Origin: a virus
Virus record (IMG/VR): IMGVR_UViG_3300048112_000013
Location: 1 to 22,992 of that record
Length of the DNA stretch: 22,992 nucleotides
Strand: one strand, 5' to 3'
Below are positions 1-17,806 of the stretch, piece by piece (within the stretch, counting starts at the first letter, position 1; each line of letters opens with the position of its first letter). The notes under the pieces were generated by a model. The model saw only the letters and a list, made by a program, of their open reading frames with translations, searched no databases and was not told where the DNA came from. Both the position numbers and the translations under genes were made by a program.

Positions 1-1170
1 TTCGTAAACTACGGTTGATGTATCGCGGTTCGTGGTCGTTGCGCGGCTAGTACCAGTCAAATGGTTAGTAGACCGCGTAGTGTTGGTATTAAACGCTGTA
101 GTCGTGCTGTGGCTTGTGCCATGCGATGTTCCAAACGTAGTGGTCGTATTAAACGAGGTCGTTGTGCTTTTGCTTGTGCCAAACGTAGTCGTGTAAGAGG
201 TTGTTGTAGCTTTGGACGTACCGAACGTAGTCGTAGTGTTGTATGACGTAGTCGTAGCTTTGGACGTCCCACGCGAGGTGTTGAAGTAAGTAGTCCAGCT
301 CGTAGTCGTAGCTTTGGACGTCCCACGCGAGGTGTTGAAGTAAGTAGTCCAGCTCGTAGTCTTATTAGTGCTTTTGCTTGTTGTGCGGGACGTTGCGCGT
401 GAATGGCTGCTGCTTTGTTGTCTGTGGACTCTGTGGTAAGCAATATATTCTGTTTGACTGAACACACTACCCTTGTAATAAGTCCAGCCACCAGATGAAA
501 AAGAAGTTCCAGAGGCACTATTTGAAATCTGCACGTTATTCCATCTAAGAGCGTTACTGTCAGTCCAGTAGTACGTGCCTGTATTTGCATACGTACCAGA
601 AGATGGCTGACGAGTCGTAGATGTCCAGGATGTAGTGTAGCTAGTTGAGTAACTAGTTGTTTTGGCTGTTGCGCGAGATGTCCCACGCGACGTACCGTAA
701 GTAGTCGTGTAACTAGTTGTTGTTGCTCTACTAGTGCCCCGACTAGTTCCATAGGTTGTGGTGTATGACGTTGTCGTACTCTTACTTGTCCCTGTTGCAC
801 GGCTAGTGTTGTACGAGGTTGTAGTGCTCTTAGAAGTCCCACGGCTAGTGTTGTACGAGGTCGTGGTGGATCTCGATGTCCCTGTAGCACGGCTCGTGTT
901 GTACGAAGTCGTGTAGCTAGTCGTTGTTGCGCGAGAAGTGCCTGTAGCGAACGTAGTGGTATACGTTGTTGTTGTATTAAACGAGGTAGTCGTAGAAAAC
1001 GCTGTTGATGTGTCACGACTAGTTACATACACCGCGTTCCAAACAGTCCCTAACGTACCGTTGTTATTGACCACAACATAGTTAACGCCATAAAGCGTAC
1101 CCGAATCTCCTTTCGCAAAGATTTGGGTAGGCTCTTTCAAAGTGCCACTGTCGTTAACTTTAATAGACAT
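1..1170 (-). CDS. Thr/Ser-rich repetitive tail fibre protein, 3' end outside window
   Basis: This is a probable tail or receptor-binding fibre. The ATG at 1170 follows an AAGG-type ribosome site and lies 9 bases after the preceding fibre gene. From it, 390 codons run open to base 1, so the C terminus is missing. Residues 1-50 (MSIKVNDSGTLKEPTQIFAK...) look like the short attachment segment seen at the N terminus of many phage tail proteins. Residues about 52-180 and 256-385 are almost entirely Thr/Ser with regularly placed aromatic and Arg/Lys residues, in units such as STTTSYNTSRGTSK. Between them, residues about 185-250 form a normal-complexity segment rich in Tyr, Trp and Asn (GTYYWTDSNALRWNN). 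Because the codons are so repetitive, other frames also stay open here; only this frame has a start next to the upstream gene and a sensible N terminus. The fibre role is inferred from position and repeat style; no catalytic motif is visible. Confidence 0.75.
   Translation of the reverse strand, partial: MSIKVNDSGTLKEPTQIFAKGDSGTLYGVNYVVVNNNGTLGTVWNAVYVTSRDTSTAFSTTTSFNTTTTYTTTFATGTSRATTTSYTTSYNTSRATGTSRSTTTSYNTSRGTSKSTTTSYNTSRATGTSKSTTTSYTTTYGTSRGTSRATTTSYTTTYGTSRGTSRATAKTTSYSTSYTTSWTSTTRQPSSGTYANTGTYYWTDSNALRWNNVQISNSASGTSFSSGGWTYYKGSVFSQTEYIAYHRVHRQQSSSHSRATSRTTSKSTNKTTSWTTYFNTSRGTSKATTTSWTTYFNTSRGTSKATTTSYNTTTTFGTSKATTTSYTTTFGTSKSTTTSFNTTTTFGTSHGTSHSTTTAFNTNTTRSTNHLTGTSRATTTNRDTSTVVYE
247..354 (-). 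repeat. Perfect 54-base tandem duplication inside the Thr/Ser fibre gene
   Basis: Bases 247-300 and 301-354 are identical over 54 positions, and the first seven bases of a third copy follow at 355-361. In the fibre frame each copy encodes SWTTYFNTSRGTSKATTT (residues 273-290 and 291-308). The lack of any silent difference suggests a recent slippage or unequal-recombination event. The rest of the gene carries only diverged copies of similar units. Confidence 0.97.
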
Positions 1171-3485: not shown

Positions 3486-3833
3486 TTAATAGCACCAGAG
3501 GACCGGCGTGGTCTTTCTGATATCTACATGTACGAAGCCCTTTGCGACACCAACAGACATTCCCATCGCTAATGCATGAGCCACAATTGCGCGCCGTTGA
3601 GCGCCACCTTGTACTGCGACATCTGCGGCAATACCCTGTGCATGGGTGCCTGGTTCTGCTTTTCGCTTCTCAACGCTGTGCTTTTTACTTCTAAAACCGC
3701 TCGTTATGTAGAACGGGAAACCGCATGCCGCCCTCAGCTGATCTAATACGTGGATAAAATCTTCTTGCATTTCGTTCTCGCCGGTCTCTTGGCAGTCGAA
3801 ATCTTCTATCTTGAAGTACTTAAAATCTGTCAT
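3486..3833 (-). CDS. Peptidase M15-family endolysin
   Basis: This is a 115-residue peptidoglycan peptidase of the M15 (D-Ala-D-Ala carboxypeptidase-like) family, most likely the phage endolysin. The family signature is clear: ITSGFRSKKHS at residues 43-53, GTHAQGIAADV at 62-72, and KGFVHVDIR at 98-106. The expected zinc ligands are His64, Asp71 and His102. The protein is a single catalytic domain without a cell-wall-binding domain or signal peptide, as is usual for small endolysins of phages of Gram-negative hosts, so it would need a holin to reach the cell wall. It starts 2 bases after the stop of the one-TM protein and closes the lysis cassette. A virion-associated role cannot be excluded. 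Confidence 0.85.
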   Translation of the reverse strand: MTDFKYFKIEDFDCQETGENEMQEDFIHVLDQLRAACGFPFYITSGFRSKKHSVEKRKAEPGTHAQGIAADVAVQGGAQRRAIVAHALAMGMSVGVAKGFVHVDIRKTTPVLWCY

Positions 3834-3835
3834 TG

Positions 3836-4117
3836 TTATTCTCTAAACAAGTAAAAAACGAAGCCGAGCAATGCCGCCCATATAGAAGCTACAAGTCCTT
3901 GGCCAACCTTCACGACCTGACTATTAGTAGCTACTTGCTCAGCAACTTCTTCGAGCTTCTTTTCACCTTCATCGAGGCGTAACTCGTGGCGTTTAAGGCG
4001 AGCATCTGTGCCAATCAACTTCTCTTCGATTCTCGCGATGTGAGTCAACACCTCGGTCAGCTTGTCTATCTTCAGTTCAAGGCGATCAAACCGTCGGTTT
4101 GTTTCTGGGTCGGTCAT
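3836..4117 (-). CDS. Coiled-coil plus C-terminal TM protein (XhlA/holin-like)
   Basis: This 93-residue protein starts at the ATG at 4117, which overlaps the stop of the upstream gene as ATGA. A longer reading from 4198 would only duplicate sequence inside the upstream gene. Residues 1-70 are charged and helical with heptad-like spacing (FDRLELKIDKLTEVLTHIARIEEKL), predicting a coiled coil. Residues about 73-91 (GQGLVASIWAALLGFVFYL) form one membrane segment, followed by a short FRE tail. This architecture resembles haemolysin XhlA-type proteins and some phage holin partners. It lies between a two-TM holin candidate and the M15 endolysin, so a lysis role (holin, antiholin or accessory) is likely, but which one is not decided by sequence. 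Confidence 0.65.
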   Translation of the reverse strand: MTDPETNRRFDRLELKIDKLTEVLTHIARIEEKLIGTDARLKRHELRLDEGEKKLEEVAEQVATNSQVVKVGQGLVASIWAALLGFVFYLFRE

Positions 4118-4485
4118 TTGCGCATTCCCATAAGTTTCGATGCGCCCTTGATTCCAAAAGAACTCGAGATCGCGATAAATAGTAAGTACTGATACCACTC
4201 TGGTAGATCGTTCAGCGTTGAGAATGCCTGCCGCACACGATCTACAACTGTCATGTCGTTAGCTATAATTGCGTAGCCGACCATGAATATTGGTACAGCT
4301 AATATTATAGTCCAAAACTCATCTTTCCACGAGCTGCCAGAAGCATCTGCCATCTTCGCTTCCCAGTCTGCATCGTTCTGGATCACGTTCATTTTGGCTT
4401 CGTGCTTAGCCTGCTTCTCTGCGGCTTTGTTGCTGAGGTAGGTCTTGCCTAAATCTGCGATGGGGCCTAGTAATAGTTTCAACAT
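4114..4485 (-). CDS. Holin candidate (GTA_holin_3TM-like)
   Basis: This is a 123-residue membrane protein. Residues 1-12 are hydrophobic/amphipathic, 15-50 are charged and helical, and there are two clear membrane segments at about 57-75 (FWTIILAVPIFMVGYAI) and 97-112 (WYQYLLFIAISSSFGI). A short basic tail (KGASKLMGMRK) follows. The LPEWYQYLLFIAISSSFGIKG region is reminiscent of phage holins in the 3-TM family first described from gene transfer agents. Position supports this, since it directly precedes and overlaps (ATGA) the coiled-coil/TM protein and the M15 endolysin. A third copy of the promoter-like 18-mer lies inside this gene at 4287-4304. Holin function is inferred. Confidence 0.6.
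   Translation of the reverse strand: MLKLLLGPIADLGKTYLSNKAAEKQAKHEAKMNVIQNDADWEAKMADASGSSWKDEFWTIILAVPIFMVGYAIIANDMTVVDRVRQAFSTLNDLPEWYQYLLFIAISSSFGIKGASKLMGMRK
4287..4304 (-). promoter_or_regulatory. Intragenic copy of promoter-like 18-mer (copy 3)
   Basis: The minus strand reads TATTAGCTGTACCAATAT, one base different from the copy at 17084-17101. It lies within the holin candidate and points toward the downstream lysis genes. The hexamer in the -10 position is TATTCA, a weak match, so this copy may be a weaker promoter or only a binding site. It is also constrained by coding (Ala-Val-Pro-Ile-Phe), so chance or coding origin is possible. Confidence 0.35.
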
Positions 4486-4498
4486 TAGAGAAGTCCTG

Positions 4499-7400
4499 TT
4501 AGTAAACGATGCTGTAGCCAGGGAGTATGCGATCGGGGATTACTTCAAATCCATCCAATACAGCTGACTCTGCAAGGTCGTAAGTTGGGCCTAGTAGCGG
4601 CGCTAGTGGGGTGCTCCCCCATTTGTCGGCGTTCATCATGTTGGTAGCAATTGACATGGGGCCATTAAAACCAGACCGATCGAAAATTTCAGTCATGTAC
4701 TGGCCCCAGTCCATGCGATCAGATCGGAAGTATCTACCACCGCTCTGGTTGACGCCTGGGAGTACGCCTGCAATCAGGTACTTCGCTAGCTCGCGCAATT
4801 CGAGGCTGATCATGGCGAGTGGCATGAAGGCGACACCAGCTAGCGCCAGAGTAAGTCCAACACCACCTAGCTTCTCAAGACCTGTCATCCCTGGCTCAGC
4901 TGCTCGTGCTTTAGCCTCGCGAATAATGCCGCCACCAATAGTTTTGGAGAAGGAGTACAAGAAACTCTTTAACTGCCAGATCAAAGCGAAGCGGGGATCG
5001 TTTGCCCATGAAGGCCGCTCTGCTGAGTTCGGACGTAACATTGAACTTTCAACGAATCTTGTAAGGCCATCTTGAACTCGACGCCCTGCATCAGAGTCAA
5101 ACGATCTGCCGTCTGCTTCCCATGCTTTTACATCTGCCGCCGACACGCCAAGGTCTCTTAGGTAACGCTCCGAGCGTGGGTTACCACTATCGTTCACTGC
5201 ATGGCGCAACATGAACTGTACACCCATGTTAGAAGCGAACTCTCGGGTGAAACGGGTAAACCAATCAAGGCCAATTACTCGGAAGAACTTATCGCCAATG
5301 GCTCGCGCTTTAGGGTCCATGTACTCATGGTCAGCGTCGGTCATCATCATGTTTTCCATTGTGCGCTCTGAGGTAACACCCAGATCTTCGCCCAGTTCTT
5401 TAGCTTCTATGGGGTTCTCGATGGTGTCCTTCATTGCCTTCCACGCCATACCGAACGCATCAAAGTCTTTACCGTTTAGTACCGCTCCGCCAAGTTCCGT
5501 GATCGAGGACACAGTAGCGAGAGGAAGCAGCGTGACCCACTGGAACAACTGCAACCAGCTGTTCGCGGCTCGTAGCTTGGGACCGAGCGGTTTGCGGCTG
5601 TAGCCCATGTGTCTCTCGAGCATTGCAACAACTTCTTCTCTATCAACAGGCGACAACTTGTCGAGCTCTTGCTGCAAAAGGTCAGTACCGTCAGGCGCGC
5701 GAGTTGCACGAAGGAACTCGTTACGAGTTGATTGGTCTCGTATATATTCCTGCAACGCTTCCGCTGGGGGTAAGCTAAAGTCTTTTAGTTCGGTAGGGCT
5801 CAGGCTGTTTGTAAATACTCGAGCAGCCTCTGCTACAGCTGATGGATCTGTTGCATCAACGTTGATCTCGTTTTCATCGACTATGCGTTTCTGTAGCTGG
5901 ACTAGTTTGTGTACGGTGTCGCGTATCTGGCTCCCAGTCATCTGAGAGTCTTTGCTGAGCATCAACCCCACAAAGGCTTCTGGGTCCTCTGCAATCTTCG
6001 CGAGATCCAAGGCAACTGGGAAATAGTTATCTCTTTTAAGAACTGTGTTACCTGGAGTCTTCGAGATGTAGTTGTCATACAGCTTGCTCAGGAACTCTCG
6101 TATCTTGCGCGCATCTTCTGGGAGCTGATCTGTTGGGATATTAGCGTCTCTTGCTGCTTCCAATGTTGCTGTAGCTTCAGGTGTAGTCCAATCAGACCCA
6201 AGAATCTTCCGCACTTCGTTCATCATGCGCTTACGAATTGCTGCTTTACGCTTTACGAAGCCCATGTCTGAGCCTTTGCCTTCAGATTGAGCAGGTATAT
6301 ACATCATGTCTGCAATCTTGGTGCTAATGGTTCGCAGTACGCCGTCCTCTGTACGAACAAGCTGTGTTGCTTTGCGCACAGTAGGATTGCTCAGTACTTC
6401 GTTAACTAATCGAGATAGAGACTCAACACCTTTCTCAAACTTAGACTTAGGCATTGCATCTTCAATAGCTCTGACAAGAGCCTTCTGCTGGAACGTAGCT
6501 TCTTTCGTACCGACCTTGTTCTTCGCAGCAGTCCAGTAGCGGCGCTTGTTCTCGGTGAGCGAGTCCATGTACTCAGTGAACTGCTGGCTCTGTGCGTCTT
6601 TACCGAACCTACGTCGCATCTCTTGCGACATGCTCTTGAACATAGACACGAGCTTGTCTGCAACTTTCTTGAAGTGACTAGCCGACAAGTTCTTGGCTGG
6701 TAGGGTTTGTTTCAGGTATATATTCTTCGCGTAGATTGCTACTTGGTCGGAATACCATTCCTCAAAAGCCAGCTCGTTATTAGGGTCTTGGTAGGCAGCA
6801 GGGGCATCCTTAGCAGCGCGAGCCTTCTCGAAGTCATTAACTAAGCGGCGGTATAACGCTGAGTTCTCCAGTGAGCCAGCCATCTCTTCTTGGATCAACG
6901 CATGTCCCAGCTCGTGGGCCGTGGTCAATGCTGTCTGAAGCTGGTTGTCTGAACGATTGTCTACAAGAATCACATGCGCGTCATTGAAGCCCATGTATCG
7001 GCCTAACGCGGTATTATTGTCTAGAAGCGCGTTCATCTGCTCGCGCACAGCAGCTGCTACGCGGGGGTCAAATGTTTCTATACGGTTTCCGTCTTTGTCA
7101 GTAGTAACAGACGTAAACATCTCGTTGAACTTACCCTCAGACATCGCAGCTAGTTCTTTGATACCGAGAATAGAAACGGGTTTCTGGAGACGAAGTTTTT
7201 TCACCAACCCAGATGCAACTTGTGAAGCTAAGCGGCCAATGCTACCCGCTGGGTAAGTCGCGTTCATTGGGTTGCGACCGCCTTTGCTCTTAGGCTTCGC
7301 GGATGAGTAGCCCCTGTTCTCGACAGGGCCAGCTTCTATGTTTAAGGCAGAGAGCGGGAGGTCCCCGAGAAAACTCCTTGCGTCTTCGTCAGCCTGCTCT

Positions 7401-10042
7401 TCAACTGTGAGTCCAGCACGCTGTTCTGGTCGCTCATTCGTCCCGCCATAGTAAGTGTTGTTTTCCGTGATACGTACGCCGTTTGCACCGCGATTTTCAA
7501 AATCGGTTTTTGCTGCGTTCGCTTCTTTTTTTGTATTAAAGCTGTATTCAAACGGCCCGCCTTGATCATACCCTGAGACTGTATATGACTTTGGTGTTTT
7601 TTCTGTAGGCTGCGTCTGAGTCAGAACTTGATCAAGGGTGAGAGGTGACTGTTTAGTGCCGCCAGCGCGTAACCCGCCAGTGCTAGTTTTAAGCTGCTGC
7701 TGATCCATAGACAACAAGGACTCACCCGTTGCTTGGTCACGAACGTCATAATTAGAGAGCTGTAGCTCCGACATTATTGCTGAGAATGCCGCGCCAGCAG
7801 ATTCAATGGGGCCTCCCTGGTTAAAGTTCGAACCCTCGCGTGTCTGTAGGATTCTCCGGCCAGCGTTAACTAGGTCAGCCAGAATAGCCGTCGTCTCTTT
7901 ACCGTCCTCATCGACAACGGTCACTTTAGCTTCAGCAGAGTCTTTGTTATTAAAGTCATCGTTCTTTGCAACACGGTCTGCGTCTTTTATTGACTGTGAT
8001 AAGAACGTGCCAATAGGTAACTTCTGATCTTGTCCCCCAATAGAGAACGTCTCCGTGTCTGGAGTGGTCTCGAGGTTTAAGTCATACGCGCCGTCTTTGC
8101 CCTCAGTAATAGTTACCAAAGCAGTAGGGTTTGCCTTCTTAGCTGCAACAGCCGCCTTCATGAGGCTTTCACTCATGCCGCCGTAGTAGTCACTGTCCCA
8201 ATCGATGACCATCTCATCGCCGAACTCTTTCTTAAAGGCCTTACGAGTGGGGTCGGTGTTCTCGTACTCTCTATCTGTATTTCGTGGGGCGTACTCTTTA
8301 AGCTTCGTGGTTTCAGACTCAAATATATCGCCGCCTTCGTCGAACCCAGTAGCCTTGCTACCAAAGCCCATATCTTTATCGACTTGTTCAGAGTCTTCGT
8401 CATTCATCGGACGAACTACAGGGCCGCGCTCTTTCTCGACGCGCTTCTTACGTTCTTCCAGTGCTTGTTGAGCAGATATTGTTTTGAAACTTCCGCCTTC
8501 TGGCATCAGCTTGCGAGCCGCGTTTTCTGCCGCGGGTCGATTCTCTTCGGTCGTTAACTCTTCAGAGACTACGCGCCCCTGACTGTCAGTAACCACAACA
8601 GCTAAGTTGCCATCATCAGTCTTAACGTTACTGTATCCAAGTGCTGCTTGGAGAATAGAGTCAGAGGCTTCGCCTGCAATTACGTCAGCAACAATCTGCT
8701 CGCTGGTAGAAACGATAGTGCCTCGCCCAGGTACAAACGCTGCATACGCTGGCTTGTCTGATCCATCGATTTGCACGGGAGTGATTGTGTTCTCTTTAGC
8801 TCCGAATACGGGTTGCTTGCCAGAAGACCAGACTGCTTGCTTAGAGCTAGTGGAGTCGAGCATTGCTTCGACTTGGCCTGCAATATCGCTCTGTGATTCT
8901 TGGGACGTGTACCCGCCGAATACCTCGTCACCGTACTGCTCTTCGTTGACCTGCTGATCAACCTCTGCTTGGCGACCTTTCTCGATGAGCTGATTCGCTT
9001 GGCTGAAAATACTACCAACGGTTCCACCGGCACCAGCCGCTGCACCGCCTCCAAAGAAGCCTGCAAACGCGGACTGTGCCAAACGCATCTTCGCGTCTTG
9101 GGCGGTGTAGGTATCGTCCATATCCATACGGTTGAGGACACCAATACCTTCTTGAGCGACCTCAGTAGCGCCTTCCATAACGCCGCCTTTAAGCGCGGTG
9201 CCACTAATATCTTTGGCGAGTTTGCCAAACAGTGAGCCTTCTTTGACAGCGCGCTTTTTAGCAACGTTGCCAATTAGCTTTAGCATTCCCGCTTCAGCGC
9301 CAACACCCAATATAGCTTGAGGAGCAGCAACTAGCGCCGCTCGACCCGCGGTATCTGCATTGAGTTCTTGCCCAACTTCGAGGGCTTCTGACAAGTTGCC
9401 GCCAGCGAGCGGTGCGAACTCTGATGCACCTGCGCCGACAAACGCGCCTGCTTTAAATACGCCCCATGCTGACTGTGCGAGTTCTCTTTCCATCGCATCT
9501 GCCGTACCGTCAGCAGTTTTTTGTAGAGAGTCTTTTACAATACGGTTTGCTACGGATTTACCGACCTTACTTAATCCCGCTTTACCGACTACTGCGGCTA
9601 CGCCACCGACGCCGCCGCTTGCGATACTAGAAATAGCTGAAGGGAAAACCTCACCGGTGCCTTTACCGATCTGCATGAAAAAGCCTTCGATCGTCGGTTC
9701 ATTGTAGAACTCTTCGAAAGACTCCATTGTGGAAACAGGGATCGCAGCTTGCGCTTCTTTGATACGGGCACGACGGACATTGTCCTCTGCCGCTTCTTGA
9801 TCGCCAGTAAGCGTATTGAACAACGCGCCGAAGTACTCGATGTCTGCATCGAGAGCCGCGCCACCTGACTTACGGCCCGCCTCAAACGCTTCTGTCACGG
9901 ACTCTGGCCCAATTACACCGATTGGGTCTTCTACGGTCCCTTGCGCTATGTCCCTGTTACTTGGACCACCATCAGGTCCCCGATCTTCGGGGAGGTCAAA
10001 AGTGCCGCTATTGTAGAAAACTTGGAGTAAATCCCTTTCCAC
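4499..10042 (-). CDS. Giant internal/ejection protein with HELGH metallopeptidase domain
   Basis: This 1847-residue protein is probably carried in the virion and ejected with the DNA. It starts at GTG (10042) after a GAGGG ribosome site; no early ATG exists. Residues 1-360 contain several Gly/Ala-rich hydrophobic stretches (SIASGGVGGVAAVVGKAG, FAGFFGGGAAAGAGGTVG). A charged, mixed region follows. Around 925-1110 is a metallopeptidase-like domain with TAHELGHALI (His1043, Glu1044, His1047) and a downstream ELAFEEWYSDQ motif near 1090-1100, giving a gluzincin-like layout. The remainder is mostly helical, with hydrophobic segments near 1490-1515 (FQWVTLLPLATVSSITELGG) and 1720-1770. This matches the very large 'polyvalent' or internal virion proteins of podoviruses. 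No lysozyme or transglycosylase signature was recognised. It follows three other ejection-type genes and precedes the lysis cassette. Confidence 0.7.
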   Translation of the reverse strand: MERDLLQVFYNSGTFDLPEDRGPDGGPSNRDIAQGTVEDPIGVIGPESVTEAFEAGRKSGGAALDADIEYFGALFNTLTGDQEAAEDNVRRARIKEAQAAIPVSTMESFEEFYNEPTIEGFFMQIGKGTGEVFPSAISSIASGGVGGVAAVVGKAGLSKVGKSVANRIVKDSLQKTADGTADAMERELAQSAWGVFKAGAFVGAGASEFAPLAGGNLSEALEVGQELNADTAGRAALVAAPQAILGVGAEAGMLKLIGNVAKKRAVKEGSLFGKLAKDISGTALKGGVMEGATEVAQEGIGVLNRMDMDDTYTAQDAKMRLAQSAFAGFFGGGAAAGAGGTVGSIFSQANQLIEKGRQAEVDQQVNEEQYGDEVFGGYTSQESQSDIAGQVEAMLDSTSSKQAVWSSGKQPVFGAKENTITPVQIDGSDKPAYAAFVPGRGTIVSTSEQIVADVIAGEASDSILQAALGYSNVKTDDGNLAVVVTDSQGRVVSEELTTEENRPAAENAARKLMPEGGSFKTISAQQALEERKKRVEKERGPVVRPMNDEDSEQVDKDMGFGSKATGFDEGGDIFESETTKLKEYAPRNTDREYENTDPTRKAFKKEFGDEMVIDWDSDYYGGMSESLMKAAVAAKKANPTALVTITEGKDGAYDLNLETTPDTETFSIGGQDQKLPIGTFLSQSIKDADRVAKNDDFNNKDSAEAKVTVVDEDGKETTAILADLVNAGRRILQTREGSNFNQGGPIESAGAAFSAIMSELQLSNYDVRDQATGESLLSMDQQQLKTSTGGLRAGGTKQSPLTLDQVLTQTQPTEKTPKSYTVSGYDQGGPFEYSFNTKKEANAAKTDFENRGANGVRITENNTYYGGTNERPEQRAGLTVEEQADEDARSFLGDLPLSALNIEAGPVENRGYSSAKPKSKGGRNPMNATYPAGSIGRLASQVASGLVKKLRLQKPVSILGIKELAAMSEGKFNEMFTSVTTDKDGNRIETFDPRVAAAVREQMNALLDNNTALGRYMGFNDAHVILVDNRSDNQLQTALTTAHELGHALIQEEMAGSLENSALYRRLVNDFEKARAAKDAPAAYQDPNNELAFEEWYSDQVAIYAKNIYLKQTLPAKNLSASHFKKVADKLVSMFKSMSQEMRRRFGKDAQSQQFTEYMDSLTENKRRYWTAAKNKVGTKEATFQQKALVRAIEDAMPKSKFEKGVESLSRLVNEVLSNPTVRKATQLVRTEDGVLRTISTKIADMMYIPAQSEGKGSDMGFVKRKAAIRKRMMNEVRKILGSDWTTPEATATLEAARDANIPTDQLPEDARKIREFLSKLYDNYISKTPGNTVLKRDNYFPVALDLAKIAEDPEAFVGLMLSKDSQMTGSQIRDTVHKLVQLQKRIVDENEINVDATDPSAVAEAARVFTNSLSPTELKDFSLPPAEALQEYIRDQSTRNEFLRATRAPDGTDLLQQELDKLSPVDREEVVAMLERHMGYSRKPLGPKLRAANSWLQLFQWVTLLPLATVSSITELGGAVLNGKDFDAFGMAWKAMKDTIENPIEAKELGEDLGVTSERTMENMMMTDADHEYMDPKARAIGDKFFRVIGLDWFTRFTREFASNMGVQFMLRHAVNDSGNPRSERYLRDLGVSAADVKAWEADGRSFDSDAGRRVQDGLTRFVESSMLRPNSAERPSWANDPRFALIWQLKSFLYSFSKTIGGGIIREAKARAAEPGMTGLEKLGGVGLTLALAGVAFMPLAMISLELRELAKYLIAGVLPGVNQSGGRYFRSDRMDWGQYMTEIFDRSGFNGPMSIATNMMNADKWGSTPLAPLLGPTYDLAESAVLDGFEVIPDRILPGYSIVY

Positions 10043-10045
10043 ACT

Positions 10046-12232
10046 TTAACCCTCATTCGCTGTTTGCGCGGCTTTTGCTCTTGCGGCGGATGCTTTCCGA
10101 GTATTTGCGATAGCAATTCCCACAGCGGTGTTATAAATATCGGGGCTCAGACCTTTCAGCTCCTGGAGTCCTGCATCCTCGTCAAGAATGAGTCCATCTT
10201 CGTCGTTGTAGTAGAGCATTGTAGGTTTGTCAGGGTCATCTACTGTGACGCGACTTAAATCGAAGTCTGCTGGATCAAATCCTTCGTCAACTTCATCGCG
10301 GGATATGAAGTCTTGTAGTGTCTCCCTCAATGCGCCAGTGAAACCTCTGCCGCCTGATTCTTCGGCAGCTAGAGATGCAACGGTCATACTAATTACTCCG
10401 GTCATCCCAATCAGCGCATTGTCTATTTCTGCCGCGGTTCGATCACTTTGCTTCAGCCACACGTTGAATTTTGCGAACTCAGTGGACCGTATGAACTTTT
10501 GGGCTGGAACCTTCCCGAGGTTTAACTCTCCATCGTCCTCGCCTGGCGCGTAAATATTCAGCGCGGCAGATATAACGTCTGCCGCTTGTTTATTCGCTTC
10601 ATTGAGATAGCCTCGCATCAGCTGTTTTTGATCGGCATAGAACTTTCTGTATTTGTAAGTACGGTCAGAGGAGCTATTTGCTAGGCTCAACTCGTCTTTG
10701 CGGCTCACACTAGGACTGCCTTCAAGTCCGTCTAAGATGTTGACCATCTCAGTAGCCATCTGCTTACGGATATTGACGTCTTGCGATGAGGAGATAATAG
10801 CCGCGCGAGCAATTGCAGCGTCTCTGCTCTTCAGGCGTCTGAGGTCACGCAACTCCCTAATGCCTTCTCTCTGGAGCTGGGCTGCAACTTGCGCCTGAGT
10901 CTTTTTATCGACCACAATAGTTCCGTCATTAACGCCTTGTTCAATCTCAGATCCGCTCTTGCCTTCTATCTGCTTCGCCACTGGGTCTAAGTCTGTCGAA
11001 AACACGGCGACTTGATCTCTTTCGAGGTAGCCGTCAATCATCGCTAGCTCAGCTTTATCTTTGAGAAGACCATCATTTTCAGGGGGTGGCGTTTTAAAGT
11101 TAGGTAGGCTCGCTCGGTTTTTCTCAGTGGTTGCTATCTGCTGTACTAATTCCTCGCGTCGCTCGTCCAACTTCGGGCGGTTTCTCTCCTGCATCCATTT
11201 TTTGGGTTTCGCTGCTCTCGGATTCACTGCACCGTTACCTTCGATCGATAGAATTAAACGGCCTGCCTTGGTAGAGCGATCAACGGTCTTCATGTCAAAC
11301 GCGTTTACAGGTGGGTCTCCAACAGGTGGGTCTCCAGCAGTAGCATCTGTGGTTACAGGTGGATCTCCAGCAGTAGCAACAGGCTTACTATCATCAACCG
11401 TTTTTTGCGGTCTACTTACGCCAAGGTCATCACCGATTGCTTGCGCGGTTTCCATACCACCATCAGCAATAGCGGTCTCAACGCCTCTAGCTAAACCAAC
11501 GTTCCCTGTCTGTTTTGCGGCTTGGGAGACAGTTTTTATGTAGTTCTGCTCTGCTAAAAAGTCCTGTTCTTCGTCACGTAAACCCTGAACGCCTGAGTCC
11601 CCATCAATAAGATCAAGATTGTCGCGCATGTAATCTGGGTTAAACCTACTAGTATTAACAACGACTTCTGTCTGAAACTTTGAGTTCGCAAGTCTACCCA
11701 GCTGCCCAGGTTGAAAGCGTACTACGCTCGATTCTGGGCCGCTCGATCCGTCTTCAGTTACCACACCTTTTGAACCATCGGCATTGGTAACGGTGATGGC
11801 ATATCCACCACCATCCAGTGCTTCTACGCTTGTCGCTTTTGAGCCTTCAGGTAGGTTCCCGAACTGAGTGGCGAAACCCAAAACAATTTGCTCTGCAGCG
11901 CCGAATCGGTCACTGCCTCTTCCCGCGGCAATATCTTCGTTTATCTTGTTGTAATTAAGACCCAGCCTGTCTTGGTTAAGGTAACCAGCCGTTTGATAAG
12001 TTTTATATATCTTATCGTTAGTCTGTATTAAGAGCCTCTCATCTTCCTTCTGCTGGGCAATATCTGACGTTCGTTGCTGGCGCTCGTTAAGCGCCGCATT
12101 GTACGTGTCGTTGATATTGAACTGGCGCTTTTGTTCCTCGAACTTGTCTTTCGCGAGCTTGTTCTCAAACTGTTGTTGACCGAACTTCATTACTGAGTCC
12201 GCGCCACCAACCAAACCTTCTAGAAGTGCCAT
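10046..12232 (-). CDS. Putative internal virion/ejection protein (728 aa)
   Basis: This 728-residue protein of no recognised enzymatic family is mostly polar and helical. Residues 1-100 are charged and coiled-coil-like (FGQQQFENKLAKDKFEEQKRQ). Residues about 100-180 look beta-rich (GGGYAITVTNADGSKGVV). A flexible linker near residues 285-310 carries three GDPPV repeats. After that a long charged helical region runs to the C terminus (RELRDLRRLKSRDAAIARAAII...), ending in an Ala-rich helix. Its length, composition and position between two Gln/Ala-rich small proteins and the giant HELGH protein match the ejection-protein cluster of podoviruses (compare T7 gp14-gp15-gp16 by order, not by detectable sequence). 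The ATG at 12232 has an AGAGAG ribosome site. The role is inferred. Confidence 0.55.
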   Translation of the reverse strand: MALLEGLVGGADSVMKFGQQQFENKLAKDKFEEQKRQFNINDTYNAALNERQQRTSDIAQQKEDERLLIQTNDKIYKTYQTAGYLNQDRLGLNYNKINEDIAAGRGSDRFGAAEQIVLGFATQFGNLPEGSKATSVEALDGGGYAITVTNADGSKGVVTEDGSSGPESSVVRFQPGQLGRLANSKFQTEVVVNTSRFNPDYMRDNLDLIDGDSGVQGLRDEEQDFLAEQNYIKTVSQAAKQTGNVGLARGVETAIADGGMETAQAIGDDLGVSRPQKTVDDSKPVATAGDPPVTTDATAGDPPVGDPPVNAFDMKTVDRSTKAGRLILSIEGNGAVNPRAAKPKKWMQERNRPKLDERREELVQQIATTEKNRASLPNFKTPPPENDGLLKDKAELAMIDGYLERDQVAVFSTDLDPVAKQIEGKSGSEIEQGVNDGTIVVDKKTQAQVAAQLQREGIRELRDLRRLKSRDAAIARAAIISSSQDVNIRKQMATEMVNILDGLEGSPSVSRKDELSLANSSSDRTYKYRKFYADQKQLMRGYLNEANKQAADVISAALNIYAPGEDDGELNLGKVPAQKFIRSTEFAKFNVWLKQSDRTAAEIDNALIGMTGVISMTVASLAAEESGGRGFTGALRETLQDFISRDEVDEGFDPADFDLSRVTVDDPDKPTMLYYNDEDGLILDEDAGLQELKGLSPDIYNTAVGIAIANTRKASAARAKAAQTANEG
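11307..11368 (-). repeat. GDPPV-encoding short repeats
   Basis: The 14-base unit acaggtgggtctcc occurs at 11307-11320 and 11322-11335, and a one-base variant occurs at 11355-11368 (plus-strand reading). In the 728-residue protein they encode three GDPPV motifs in a Pro/Thr/Ala linker, probably a flexible hinge between two halves. Confidence 0.85.
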
Positions 12233-12244
12233 AAAATTCTCTCT

Positions 12245-12829
12245 TTAAAAGGCAAAAGCCATAATTGCCATTGCACCTAAACTACCTACAGTGCTCATAG
12301 TCTGTGCTTTGGACGCGGCTTTTGCTGAGTCGTATGCGTTTTTCCGTTGTGTAGCGTTACCAGCGGCAGATCCCATTTGTGACAAAGAGGACCGGTTTAC
12401 ACCCTGACCAATATTTATTAGGTCGGCGAGCTTGCCCTGGTTAAGTTCGGATTGAGCAATGCGTGCATCATTGACTGACTGGATAGCGCCAAGTGTGTTG
12501 CCTCGTGCTAAAGCGCGCTCTTGCGCCTGCTTTTGTGCTGGTGTTAGCGTGCCACCGTAACGCTCAGCATTACGATCAGAAACACCTTGCGCTAAACCAG
12601 AGGCGATAGCGGCGTTCTCTCTTGAAGAATCAATCAGCGAAGTATCAGTGGTAGCTTCGTTGATCATCTGCTCTTCAAAATCTCGATACTCATTTACATA
12701 ATCGAGATATTCTTGACGTGTGATATCCGCGTAGGTTTTGTCGGGGTCGGTGACAGTAGGTAGGCTATTTATGTAGTCACCGCCACCGTAATTCATCGTG
12801 TTAGGGTTCCAAGTACCGAGCGCGGCCAT
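12245..12829 (-). CDS. Small internal virion protein candidate (194 aa)
   Basis: This 194-residue protein has an aromatic N terminus (NYGGGDYINSLP), a polar helical middle rich in Gln, Ala and Asn (TLTPAQKQAQERALARGNTL), and a C-terminal hydrophobic segment (MSTVGSLGAMAIMAFAF) ending at the stop. A strong GGGAGG ribosome site precedes the ATG at 12829. Composition and position resemble the small Ala/Gln-rich internal proteins that head the ejection cluster of podoviruses (the T7 gp14 position). The hydrophobic C terminus could insert in the host outer membrane or pack inside the portal channel. No sequence family is recognised with confidence. Confidence 0.5.
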   Translation of the reverse strand: MAALGTWNPNTMNYGGGDYINSLPTVTDPDKTYADITRQEYLDYVNEYRDFEEQMINEATTDTSLIDSSRENAAIASGLAQGVSDRNAERYGGTLTPAQKQAQERALARGNTLGAIQSVNDARIAQSELNQGKLADLINIGQGVNRSSLSQMGSAAGNATQRKNAYDSAKAASKAQTMSTVGSLGAMAIMAFAF

Positions 12830-13501: not shown

Positions 13502-13956
13502 TACAGTTCTCTCGTGTAAATGACCGTATCTTTCTTCCAACCTTCCGCTAGCAGGTATTCTTCTAGCGCAGTAATTGGCGTTCTGACTTCTATATGGGAG
13601 AAGTCGTGTTGTTTGGCTATCTGAGCAAAGAAGGAGTAGTACTTGACTACGCAACTTTGCCCACGGTTCTTGGCCCATGCCAACCAAACAAAAAACGTCT
13701 TTTTCCCTGTAAACTCATCCCGCTCTGCGGTGGTGATTACAAATCCCTCTGGTGCTACCCAAAGGTGGGCTTCTTCATTCAGACAAGCGGCGTATACATC
13801 CTCTGGTCTAAACGTAAGCTGAGGTTGCTCAGCTAAAATCTCTTCAATACCGCGTTTTACCCAAACCCACTCTTCACGTATGTGAGCGAGGATAGGTTTA
13901 TCCGCCGTTGCCGTACCTTCTGCGCCTTGTTCTCCAAGCTCCACTTGTACCGCCAT
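13501..13956 (-). CDS. GNAT-like acetyltransferase fold protein
   Basis: This 151-residue protein has a pattern resembling a degenerate GNAT acetyltransferase. There is an N-terminal helix (HIREEWVWVKRGIEEILA), central strands (AHLWVAPEGFVITTA, then KTFFVWLAWAK), a helix at the usual acetyl-CoA position (VVKYYSFFAQIAKQHDFSHIEVRT), and a C-terminal LEEYLLAEGWKKDTVIYTREL typical of GNAT ends. The canonical Arg/Gln-x-x-Gly-x-Gly/Ala loop is not obvious; NRGQS occupies that place. Proteins of this sort occur between connector and internal-protein genes in other podoviruses. Its start lies 59 bases inside the upstream adaptor gene and no later in-frame ATG would fit. Enzymatic activity is uncertain. 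Confidence 0.5.
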   Translation of the reverse strand: MAVQVELGEQGAEGTATADKPILAHIREEWVWVKRGIEEILAEQPQLTFRPEDVYAACLNEEAHLWVAPEGFVITTAERDEFTGKKTFFVWLAWAKNRGQSCVVKYYSFFAQIAKQHDFSHIEVRTPITALEEYLLAEGWKKDTVIYTREL

Positions 13957-14578
13957 ATCTCACGCTCCTGCGAACTGCCGTGTCTGCATTACGCGACCTG
14001 CGCTCTGCATCAGTGACACCTTGATTAAATAACTGCCCATAAACTGACGCGCTCTGCAGGTCCGACCAGTCTTTGTTTGGGACTCGTAGCAAACGGAACA
14101 ACGTGCCGTTAACGATCGTGTCTCTGTAGTCGTTCATAACGTCGTTGTCGCAAGCTGTGCTCGTATGTGTTGGCCTAAGAACAGCCCTAACAATCGTGCT
14201 ACCAACGAGGGTGGCCGCTGGGATCGGGGCTACCAGAAAGGTTTCAGAGGTTTTTTGTACGAAATACTCTGGGACTCCTGACTCTTCGCGCCATTTGGGC
14301 AGACGCTGCTCAAGCAGGGTCGTAGTTAAAGGCTCTAGATCTTTACCCTTGTGTGTAACCCAAAGAATTCTTCGTACAGAAGTATCTTGAGGGGTTTCAA
14401 GGTCGTATTCGAAAATGCCAGATACTGTAGTCAGTGGGTCTAACTCGACTTGATAAACATTTGCGCGCTCGCAAAGCTCAATCACAGCCGCCCGAATGTT
14501 GCTCTCAATAAGAGTATCTGGACAACCTGGAACCATCGGTAGTATTTCGGGGAGTAGCGCCTCGTAGGTGATCGCCAT
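13898..14578 (-). CDS. Head-tail adaptor-like protein (second)
   Basis: This 226-residue protein begins AITYEALLPEILPMVPGCPDTLIESNIRAAVIELCERA, a helical opening I associate with podovirus adaptor/connector proteins (SU10-adaptor or DUF6682-like). Strands follow (FEYDLETPQDTSVRRILWVTHKGKDL, ETFLVAPIPAATLVG), then a helical section containing NDYRDTIVNGTLFRLLRVPNKDW. The C terminus is Arg-rich (RRRRYGNGG) and overlaps the next gene by 59 bases. It lies 3 bases after the other adaptor-like gene. The two probably form successive rings below the portal. The role is inferred from fold pattern and gene order. Confidence 0.6.
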   Translation of the reverse strand: MAITYEALLPEILPMVPGCPDTLIESNIRAAVIELCERANVYQVELDPLTTVSGIFEYDLETPQDTSVRRILWVTHKGKDLEPLTTTLLEQRLPKWREESGVPEYFVQKTSETFLVAPIPAATLVGSTIVRAVLRPTHTSTACDNDVMNDYRDTIVNGTLFRLLRVPNKDWSDLQSASVYGQLFNQGVTDAERRSRNADTAVRRSVRYGGTSGAWRTRRRRYGNGG

Positions 14579-14581
14579 GTT

Positions 14582-15268
14582 TTATGCTCCCATCTGCGCT
14601 CGACGTTCGATGTTCGGATTACTAATCGCGTCTATCTGACCTTTGCCCGTAACTGACGCCGTGAAAAGCTGGTAGTGGCTGGAAGCACGTTGCTGGTTAC
14701 CAGCAAACTCAGCGTCTTTCATGTAAGCCATATATAAGACGTAGTTCATTATTGCGTTAGCGAATATGTCTGGAATCGATAGGTTGTCAGAAAGAGTTAC
14801 CGTTGCTGGGTTTGCTGAATAGACAAGCTCTACATAAGCATTGCCACTAACCCCTGGGTACACATAAAAGTTTCTGGGGTTAGCCTCTTCATACGAGTAG
14901 TGCTTTACGACGTTTGTATGAGCAGCATCACCAGTTGTAGCGGGGTCATGCCAATTTGGAGTTTGTGAATCCAAGACCGACAAGTCGACCAGCCGTATAG
15001 CGCGTTTACCAACGCCTCCGCTTGAAGCGGACATGTTGCGTATAACCTTTAACAGTCTATTGCCTGCCGATGGGATCTCTTGTTTGGTGCCAGTTGCAAG
15101 AGTTACGGTGGTGTTAACGGCGCTTGCATCAGGCTTTAGCAAAGCCACTTCCCGCTGTGCGTCGTTTACCCACAGAACAAGCTCGTTGGTAACAGGCCAT
15201 CTAACGCCAGTAGTGTCTTGTAAGACAGATTGAACTCTATCGATAACGCTTTGAACTGTTACTGACAT
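14582..15268 (-). CDS. Head-tail adaptor-like protein (DUF6682-like)
   Basis: This 228-residue protein has an opening (VQSVIDRVQSVLQDTTGVRWPVTNELVLWVNDAQREVALLKPDA) that matches my memory of the DUF6682 phage family. Those proteins sit next to capsid genes in podoviruses and are thought to act as adaptor or gatekeeper proteins. The middle is beta-rich (NFYVYPGVSGNAYVELVYS). The C-terminal helical part (DIFANAIMNYVLYMAYMKDAEFAGNQQRASSHYQLF) resembles the closing helices of that family. It is 9 bases downstream of the head-associated protein and 3 bases upstream of the second adaptor. Family assignment is fairly confident; function is inferred. Confidence 0.68.
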   Translation of the reverse strand: MSVTVQSVIDRVQSVLQDTTGVRWPVTNELVLWVNDAQREVALLKPDASAVNTTVTLATGTKQEIPSAGNRLLKVIRNMSASSGGVGKRAIRLVDLSVLDSQTPNWHDPATTGDAAHTNVVKHYSYEEANPRNFYVYPGVSGNAYVELVYSANPATVTLSDNLSIPDIFANAIMNYVLYMAYMKDAEFAGNQQRASSHYQLFTASVTGKGQIDAISNPNIERRAQMGA

Positions 15269-17115: not shown

Positions 17116-17511
17116 CTATCTATGGCGGGCTGTTTTTTTAGCGATCTTCTTAGGTTGCTTGCTGAACTGCTTGCCTGCTTTAGTATCTCTGCGCTTCTTA
17201 GCGCTGGTTTTTGCATACTCTTTCTTACTTAAAGACTCACGAGCTTTCTTCGGCAAGTACCGTTCGCCTGTAGCTTTTTTGCCTTGGGTGCTGTTCTTAC
17301 CGGATTTAGTACCCCATTTCTCCTTAGTCCACTTCGATAGAGACTTTTGAGCTTTAGTTTTGGCTCCAGAATAGCCGCCGCCCGCTTTTTTATAGCGTTG
17401 CGTTGCCAGTTGAGCTTTGCGAGCTGACCATTGCCCAGGTTTTCCGCCTTTAGACCCAGCTTTAACGGCTGCGACAATTCGTTTCCACTTAGTTTCGTCG
17501 GTTCTGGCCAT
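17116..17511 (-). CDS. Small very basic DUF5872-like protein
   Basis: This is a 131-residue, strongly basic protein. The order of motifs (TKWKRIVAAVKAGSKGGKPG, QWSARKAQLATQRYKKAGGGY, LSKWTKEKWGT, then ERYLPKKARESLS and KQPKKIAKKTARHR) matches the DUF5872 family as I remember it from marine phages and large algal viruses. The function of that family is not known to me. The charge and its location between scaffold and capsid suggest an internal head component or nucleic-acid-binding protein, but nothing in the sequence proves this. It follows the other basic protein by four bases and lies just before the capsid leader. Confidence 0.7.
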   Translation of the reverse strand: MARTDETKWKRIVAAVKAGSKGGKPGQWSARKAQLATQRYKKAGGGYSGAKTKAQKSLSKWTKEKWGTKSGKNSTQGKKATGERYLPKKARESLSKKEYAKTSAKKRRDTKAGKQFSKQPKKIAKKTARHR

Positions 17512-17515
17512 TAGA

Positions 17516-17806
17516 TCACCACTTAACTCGGTTTGCCCAATAAGCCGCGCTCATCTTGCCCTTCGAAATGTTACGGCGGTGCCTAGCCTTGAAAGAAGCA
17601 CGCTTCTTCTTCATCTTTTCGGACTCACCGGCCTTTGGCTTGCCTGCAGTAGACGCACCTTGCTCACCAAAACGTATGGTTTTGATCTTGTCACCTTCTT
17701 TAGCCACAACAATGTGTGACTTCTTGGGGTGACTGGGGGTCCTTTTTGGCTTGTTAAAGCCCGAGACTCCAGCTCGGGCTAATCGTGGGTCTTTTTTAAC
17801 TGGCAT
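17516..17806 (-). CDS. Small basic phage protein of unknown function (DUF6321-like?)
   Basis: This is a 96-residue basic protein. The N-terminal third is Pro/Lys-rich (FNKPKRTPSHPKKSHIVVA). The core EGDKIKTIRFGEQGASTAG is followed by a helical, very basic tail (KMKKKRASFKARHRRNISKGKMSAAYWANRVKW). The tail pattern SFKARHRRNI..GKMSAAYWANRVKW recurs in small proteins of marine phages; I believe these are called DUF6321, but the name is from memory. It sits between scaffold and the DUF5872-like gene with short gaps on both sides. It is likely made with head proteins; the function is unknown. Its first codons contain a strong 8-bp hairpin (17758-17780). Confidence 0.6.
   Translation of the reverse strand: MPVKKDPRLARAGVSGFNKPKRTPSHPKKSHIVVAKEGDKIKTIRFGEQGASTAGKPKAGESEKMKKKRASFKARHRRNISKGKMSAAYWANRVKW

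Follow-up and report, generated by a model that had tools for sequence, protein, structure and literature searches.

The window, that is, the whole 22,992-base virus record analysed here, is a fragment of a short-tailed phage genome whose genes lie on the minus strand. The gene set comprises a terminase, a P22-like portal, a scaffold-like protein, a major capsid protein, two SU10-type adaptors, internal-protein-sized genes, lysis genes and tail fibres. A gene for an 1847-residue protein at 4499–10042, already recorded in the preliminary description, is flanked by head/adaptor genes on one side and by lysis genes on the other; it lies on the minus strand, which that description did not give, and begins with GTG. 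The gene order is kept in relatives and runs from the adaptor through genes for 151-, 284-, 194- and 728-aa proteins to the giant gene, followed by lysis or tail-fibre genes. The features of the locus are as follows:

3486–4485, minus strand: lysis-like genes directly downstream of the giant gene, encoding two small membrane proteins (one holin-like) and an endolysin (PHROGs)
4499–10042, minus strand: gene of the putative giant ejection protein (1847 aa, GTG start; synteny conserved in relatives)
4523–6361, minus strand: C-terminal all-helical block, residues 1228–1840 (homology to KPP25, tf and LUZ24 virion proteins and to phiA008)
4793–4870, minus strand: single strongly hydrophobic stretch, residues 1725–1750, a possible membrane segment (hydropathy above 1.6 over 19 residues)
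6362–6562, minus strand: second variable linker, residues 1161–1227 (14% identity in divergent relatives; conserved among near relatives)
6563–7282, minus strand: predicted zincin (gluzincin-type metallopeptidase) domain, residues 921–1160 (alignments A1 and A2, AlphaFold model, Foldseek)
6743–6766, minus strand: FEEWYSDQ, residues 1093–1100 (F, E, E, W, Y and D invariant in A2)
6902–6916, minus strand: HELGH, residues 1043–1047 (H, E and H invariant in A2)
7283–7762, minus strand: variable inter-domain linker, residues 761–920 (block conservation across relatives)
8423–9910, minus strand: N-terminal conserved block, Gly/Ala-rich, residues 45–540 (25–46% mean identity in divergent relatives)
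10046–12232, minus strand: 728-aa protein upstream of the giant gene, candidate second ejection protein (synteny; T7 gp15-like by size and place only)
12245–12829, minus strand: 194-aa protein, phrog_596 (unknown), candidate small ejection protein (PHROGs, synteny; T7 gp14-like by size and place only)
13898–15268, minus strand: two adjacent SU10-type adaptor genes, head-to-tail connector (Pfam SU10_adaptor)

The two adaptor genes are consecutive paralogues (Pfam 7e-35 and 1.5e-12), and the 728-aa protein matched no family and no isolate in searches of Pfam, PHROGs and the isolates. Between the scaffold and capsid genes (17116–17806, minus strand), two small neighbouring proteins are very rich in Lys/Arg and are possibly DNA-binding head proteins. 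An open-ended 390-aa protein at 1–1170 (minus strand) consists almost entirely of short Thr/Ser/Tyr-rich repeats and is probably a tail-fibre-like repeat protein; three DNA tandem arrays are present in the same interval. The conservation of the giant protein itself falls into three blocks (residues 45–540, 921–1160 and 1228–1840) separated by variable linkers. The N-terminal block has no family match in Pfam or PHROGs, and no peptidoglycan hydrolase family matched the window protein in these two collections, which agrees with the earlier statement that it carries no recognised hydrolase motif.

The central block contains both motifs named in the preliminary description. HELGH begins at residue 1043, exactly as its His1043/Glu1044/His1047 numbering had it, with the two His residues as predicted zinc ligands and Glu1044 as the predicted general base, and FEEWYSDQ follows downstream from residue 1093, providing Glu1095 as the predicted third ligand together with Asp1099. 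The ligand role of Glu1095 is assigned from the ExxxD pattern, which is the arrangement of gluzincins such as thermolysin; since Glu1095 and Asp1099 reproduce this pattern, the label gluzincin-like is supported. By composition, 0.0027 HExxH motifs are expected per protein of this make-up. All 25 giant proteins examined in relatives, down to approximately 20% identity, contain HExxH with F[ED]EW[YF][SA]D downstream, and the isolated Aeromonas phage phiA008 also keeps both motifs, as HELGH and FDEWFAD. With about 0.003 occurrences expected and both motifs retained in all these relatives and in phiA008, the HExxH of the giant protein is not a chance occurrence. Loss of the His or Glu residues in homologues, which the preliminary description had named as the result that would count against it, was not seen in any relative examined.

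In the A2 alignment of 23 sequences, the only invariant columns of the zincin domain are H, E, H and F, E, E, W, Y, D of the two motifs. Scans of viral contigs yielded close relatives at 69–92% identity and, among the matches listed, divergent ones at 25–44% over the zincin domain. Outside its catalytic residues, which form an invariant core, the aligned domain is approximately 20–40% identical. The domain is under purifying selection, with dN/dS values of 0.02–0.07 against near relatives. The domain is very likely catalytic, as neither the predicted general base nor any of the predicted ligands varies. A degenerate DNA pattern for FEEWYSDQ was found in 17 contigs among 2.9 million viral contigs, 16 of which belong to the giant-protein family. 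The remaining contig, an apparent counter-example carrying FEEWYTDQ without HExxH (L056), was rejected: stops interrupt its frame, and the match is fortuitous. The only bacterial genome among the matches listed (L043) was likewise rejected as a family member, as its sequence looks like an M3-type oligopeptidase.

Structure prediction and fold search had both been proposed in the preliminary description. AlphaFold on A2 returned a mean pLDDT of 64.8 overall, about 80 over the core and block means of approximately 75–88 over most of model residues 30–260. The predicted order is a helix, a mixed sheet, the HELGH helix and a later FEEWYSD helix, and the model is zincin-like, with both motifs in helices behind a small sheet. 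Residues 1043–1047 are covered by a model helix, as is characteristic of gluzincins (clan MA(E)), and the downstream Glu and Asp of ExxxD, which also characterise this clan, lie in a further model helix as E1095 and D1099, both invariant in the 23 sequences. Foldseek against solved structures produced weak matches only, with lethal-factor type zincins at the top (E 5.6e-3, TM 0.26 normalised to the query); against predicted viral proteins, the weak matches included IrrE, SprT and polyvalent-protein entries. The domain is therefore named here at the fold level, with no closer membership claimed. Conserved predicted catalytic residues, purifying selection and a zincin-like model together support the metallopeptidase originally proposed.

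Searches of Pfam, NCBIfam, PHROGs and PADLOC returned nothing above cut-off for the zincin domain of the window protein. The best score to Peptidase_M78/IrrE (PF06114) was 16.3 bits, under the Pfam gathering cut-off of 22; among the relatives, 13 of 23 matched this family at E values up to 1, the best being 3.5e-7. Since no Pfam, NCBIfam or PHROGs entry reaches its cut-off on this domain of the window protein, the FEEWYSDQ clade is, as judged by sequence comparison, an unlabelled subfamily. Several candidate relatives were discarded. Snake venom metalloproteinases, found as PDB sequence matches at E values of about 0.1–1, resemble the domain in HExxH only. A common family with the zincin of N4 vRNAP was rejected, the comparison not being significant even with an 8-sequence N4-like profile: hhalign aligned the N4 C-terminal region over the HExxH helix only (probability 2.9%, E 0.016) and C2 had no match. 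The HExxH region of KPP25 was also set aside, as it does not match the window zincin profile.

The link to the virion comes from the C-terminal block. Its profile matched phiA008 (E 1.7e-86), KPP25 (E 4.7e-70), tf gp51 (E 1.8e-37) and LUZ24 gp50 (E 1.5e-21, profile positions 30–595 of 611), and the annotation of the KPP25, tf and LUZ24 homologues is that of virion structural proteins. For LUZ24, an ESI-MS/MS analysis of virions is cited in a passage in which gp50 is not named (PMC3517423). No fold match and no sequence match to solved structures was obtained for this block. Its homology to the three virion proteins and the position of the gene between head/adaptor and lysis genes argue for a podovirus ejection protein in the style of the polyvalent proteins. 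Thus, we consider it highly probable that the giant protein is a metallopeptidase-bearing ejection (internal virion) protein of a LUZ24/KPP25-related podovirus, and we infer from homology and gene order that it is ejected with the DNA.

Relatives of the giant protein differ in the modules that accompany the protease. The N-terminal module is a phage lysozyme in two of them (L021 and L022) and endolysin/transglycosylase-like in one (L027), making three relatives with wall hydrolases in the giant protein, and the zincin is kept in each. The phiA008 protein (L011, 6967–13158) begins with a staphylococcal-nuclease-like domain, followed by the same zincin and C block. A further relative (L006), with N and C blocks 99–100% identical to those of the window protein, has a first linker longer by approximately 150 aa (residues about 781–930, locus about 9516–9965), again with the zincin retained. 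In Roseobacter phage CRP-810 (L033, 722–9290), the C block and two HExxH motifs are split over two neighbouring genes of 851 and 2026 aa. Within the clade of the window protein, the enzymatic module that stays constant is the protease, whereas wall hydrolases and other inserts vary from relative to relative, an observation that is new here. Since the zincin is kept through these changes, is absent in LUZ24 and tf and has another HExxH region in its place in KPP25, the protease is constant inside the clade and can be replaced or missing beyond it.

We propose that the giant protein consists of three conserved blocks on variable linkers, namely the N-terminal block, a gluzincin metallopeptidase and the helical C-terminal block, of which the last would be the virion part, by homology to LUZ24 gp50. 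In the virion, the protein would reside inside the head, to exit together with the DNA or ahead of it, and an active metallopeptidase would then work, during or after ejection, on the giant protein or its ejected partners, a cleavage that may free modules or remodel the ejection complex. Taken as a whole, this is our best explanation, held at a little short of even confidence. Self-processing during or after ejection is the leading, still tentative, reading of what the protease does, since variable linkers join the domain to the blocks on either side and since such a role has been proposed for the class: Iyer, Burroughs and Aravind suggested autoproteolytic processing for polyvalent-protein metallopeptidases, citing P1 DdrB, which is cleaved and processed before packaging (PMC5512222). 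Against it, no conserved cleavage-like motif stands out among relatives in either linker (residues 761–920 and 1161–1227), and the analogue that has been studied most, N4 vRNAP, is packaged in uncut form although it has an HExxH domain (PMC5512222). Moreover, HExxH is lacking in LUZ24 gp50 and tf gp51, both of which possess the C block, so that ejection in general does not depend on processing. The lack of a linker motif speaks for the main rival reading, which we regard as somewhat unlikely: early in infection, the protease would cut a host protein, be it a factor of defence, of the envelope or of transcription. Host proteolysis is among the possible roles listed by Iyer et al. (PMC5512222), the weak fold similarities are to toxin-type and IrrE-type zincins, and the zincin is the constant enzymatic module of its clade while wall hydrolases vary. 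However, the domain is not free but embedded between blocks of a large structural protein, and an arms race would not obviously produce such strict, long-lasting conservation around the active site. The stronger form of this proposal, in which the enzyme that the clade's ejection protein cannot do without is the ejected protease rather than a wall hydrolase, and this protease acts on a host protein as infection begins, appears rather doubtful.

As proposed for P1 DdrB, the protease might instead cut the giant protein or further head proteins, either ahead of packaging or while it is under way. This would suit a late-operon gene beside structural genes and has the processing of DdrB before packaging as a precedent (PMC5512222); nevertheless, N4 vRNAP is packaged whole (PMC5512222) and the related podoviruses LUZ24 and tf assemble without HExxH in their C-block protein, which leaves head-assembly maturation improbable. 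Slightly less probable still is a zincin fold that serves only as a structural or encapsidation domain. The N4 C-terminal region containing HExxH is required for encapsidation, and the sources consulted report no protease activity for it (PMC12633501, PMC5512222), but the only invariant positions in 23 sequences of the window family are His, Glu, His and FEEWY.D, and a general base such as Glu1044 would be needless in a purely structural domain. The preliminary description had also suggested that the protease opens the cell envelope, acting on the peptidoglycan or outer-membrane layer for DNA passage. Some metallopeptidases do cut peptidoglycan peptides, and the window protein has no recognised wall hydrolase of its own. 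Yet L021, L022 and L027 combine a lysozyme or transglycosylase-like module with the metallopeptidase in a single chain, and what weak fold similarity there is points to zincins that cleave proteins instead of M15/M23 wall peptidases. With a constant protease beside variable wall hydrolases, the protease is probably not a stand-in wall hydrolase, and because the two co-occur, envelope opening is less likely than first suggested and, in our judgement, very improbable. Self-processing remains the reading we prefer.

By size and place, the giant protein resembles T7 gp16, the internal core protein that ends a run of 196-, 747- and 1318-aa proteins and bears an N-terminal lytic transglycosylase domain: it is the last and largest of a run of 194, 728 and 1847 aa. 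Unlike gp16, it has no lytic transglycosylase domain in Pfam or PHROG searches. The protein belongs to an already described class, the polyvalent virion proteins with zincin-like peptidases, of which metallopeptidases, published as 12 clades, are the commonest domain (Iyer et al. 2017, PMC5512222). As in that class, a giant multidomain protein is encoded among virion genes and holds, in a middle position between other domains, an HExxH helix and a second helix with Glu; in contrast to those proteins, no named domain corresponds to the FEEWYSDQ block or to the helical C block. Despite their frequency, the sources consulted give no demonstrated substrate for such a metallopeptidase in an ejected protein (PMC5512222, PMC12633501). 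Literature searches found nothing on the giant protein.

N4 vRNAP gp50 is likewise a giant ejected podovirus protein, with a zincin-like C1 directly before a large all-helical C2 (PMC12633501), and its HExxH domain was placed in the zincin-like superfamily via HHPRED by Iyer et al. (PMC5512222); unlike gp50, the window protein lacks an RNA polymerase domain, and the helical domains of the two share no sequence match. Closer to the window protein, KPP25 ORF088, like the phiR18 virion structural protein (phrog_30152), has a homologous C block with an HExxH (HESMH) just N-terminal to it, but the KPP25 region neither matches the zincin profile nor contains FEEWYSD. LUZ24 gp50 and tf gp51 are homologous to the C block nearly end to end and occupy a similar late-operon place, whereas they measure about 1,030–1,055 aa and lack the HExxH domain. 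Aeromonas phage phiA008 pA_gene0066 (UIS74281.1) has the same zincin (HELGH, FDEWFAD) and the same C block, differing in its N-terminal nuclease-like (SNase) domain; the N block of the window protein was not detected in phiA008. As phiA008 is an isolated phage, the role of the protease is open to experimental test. Together, these proteins offer a natural comparison, in which one C-terminal virion block occurs with the FEEWYSDQ zincin (the window family and phiA008), with another HExxH region (KPP25) or with none (LUZ24 and tf).
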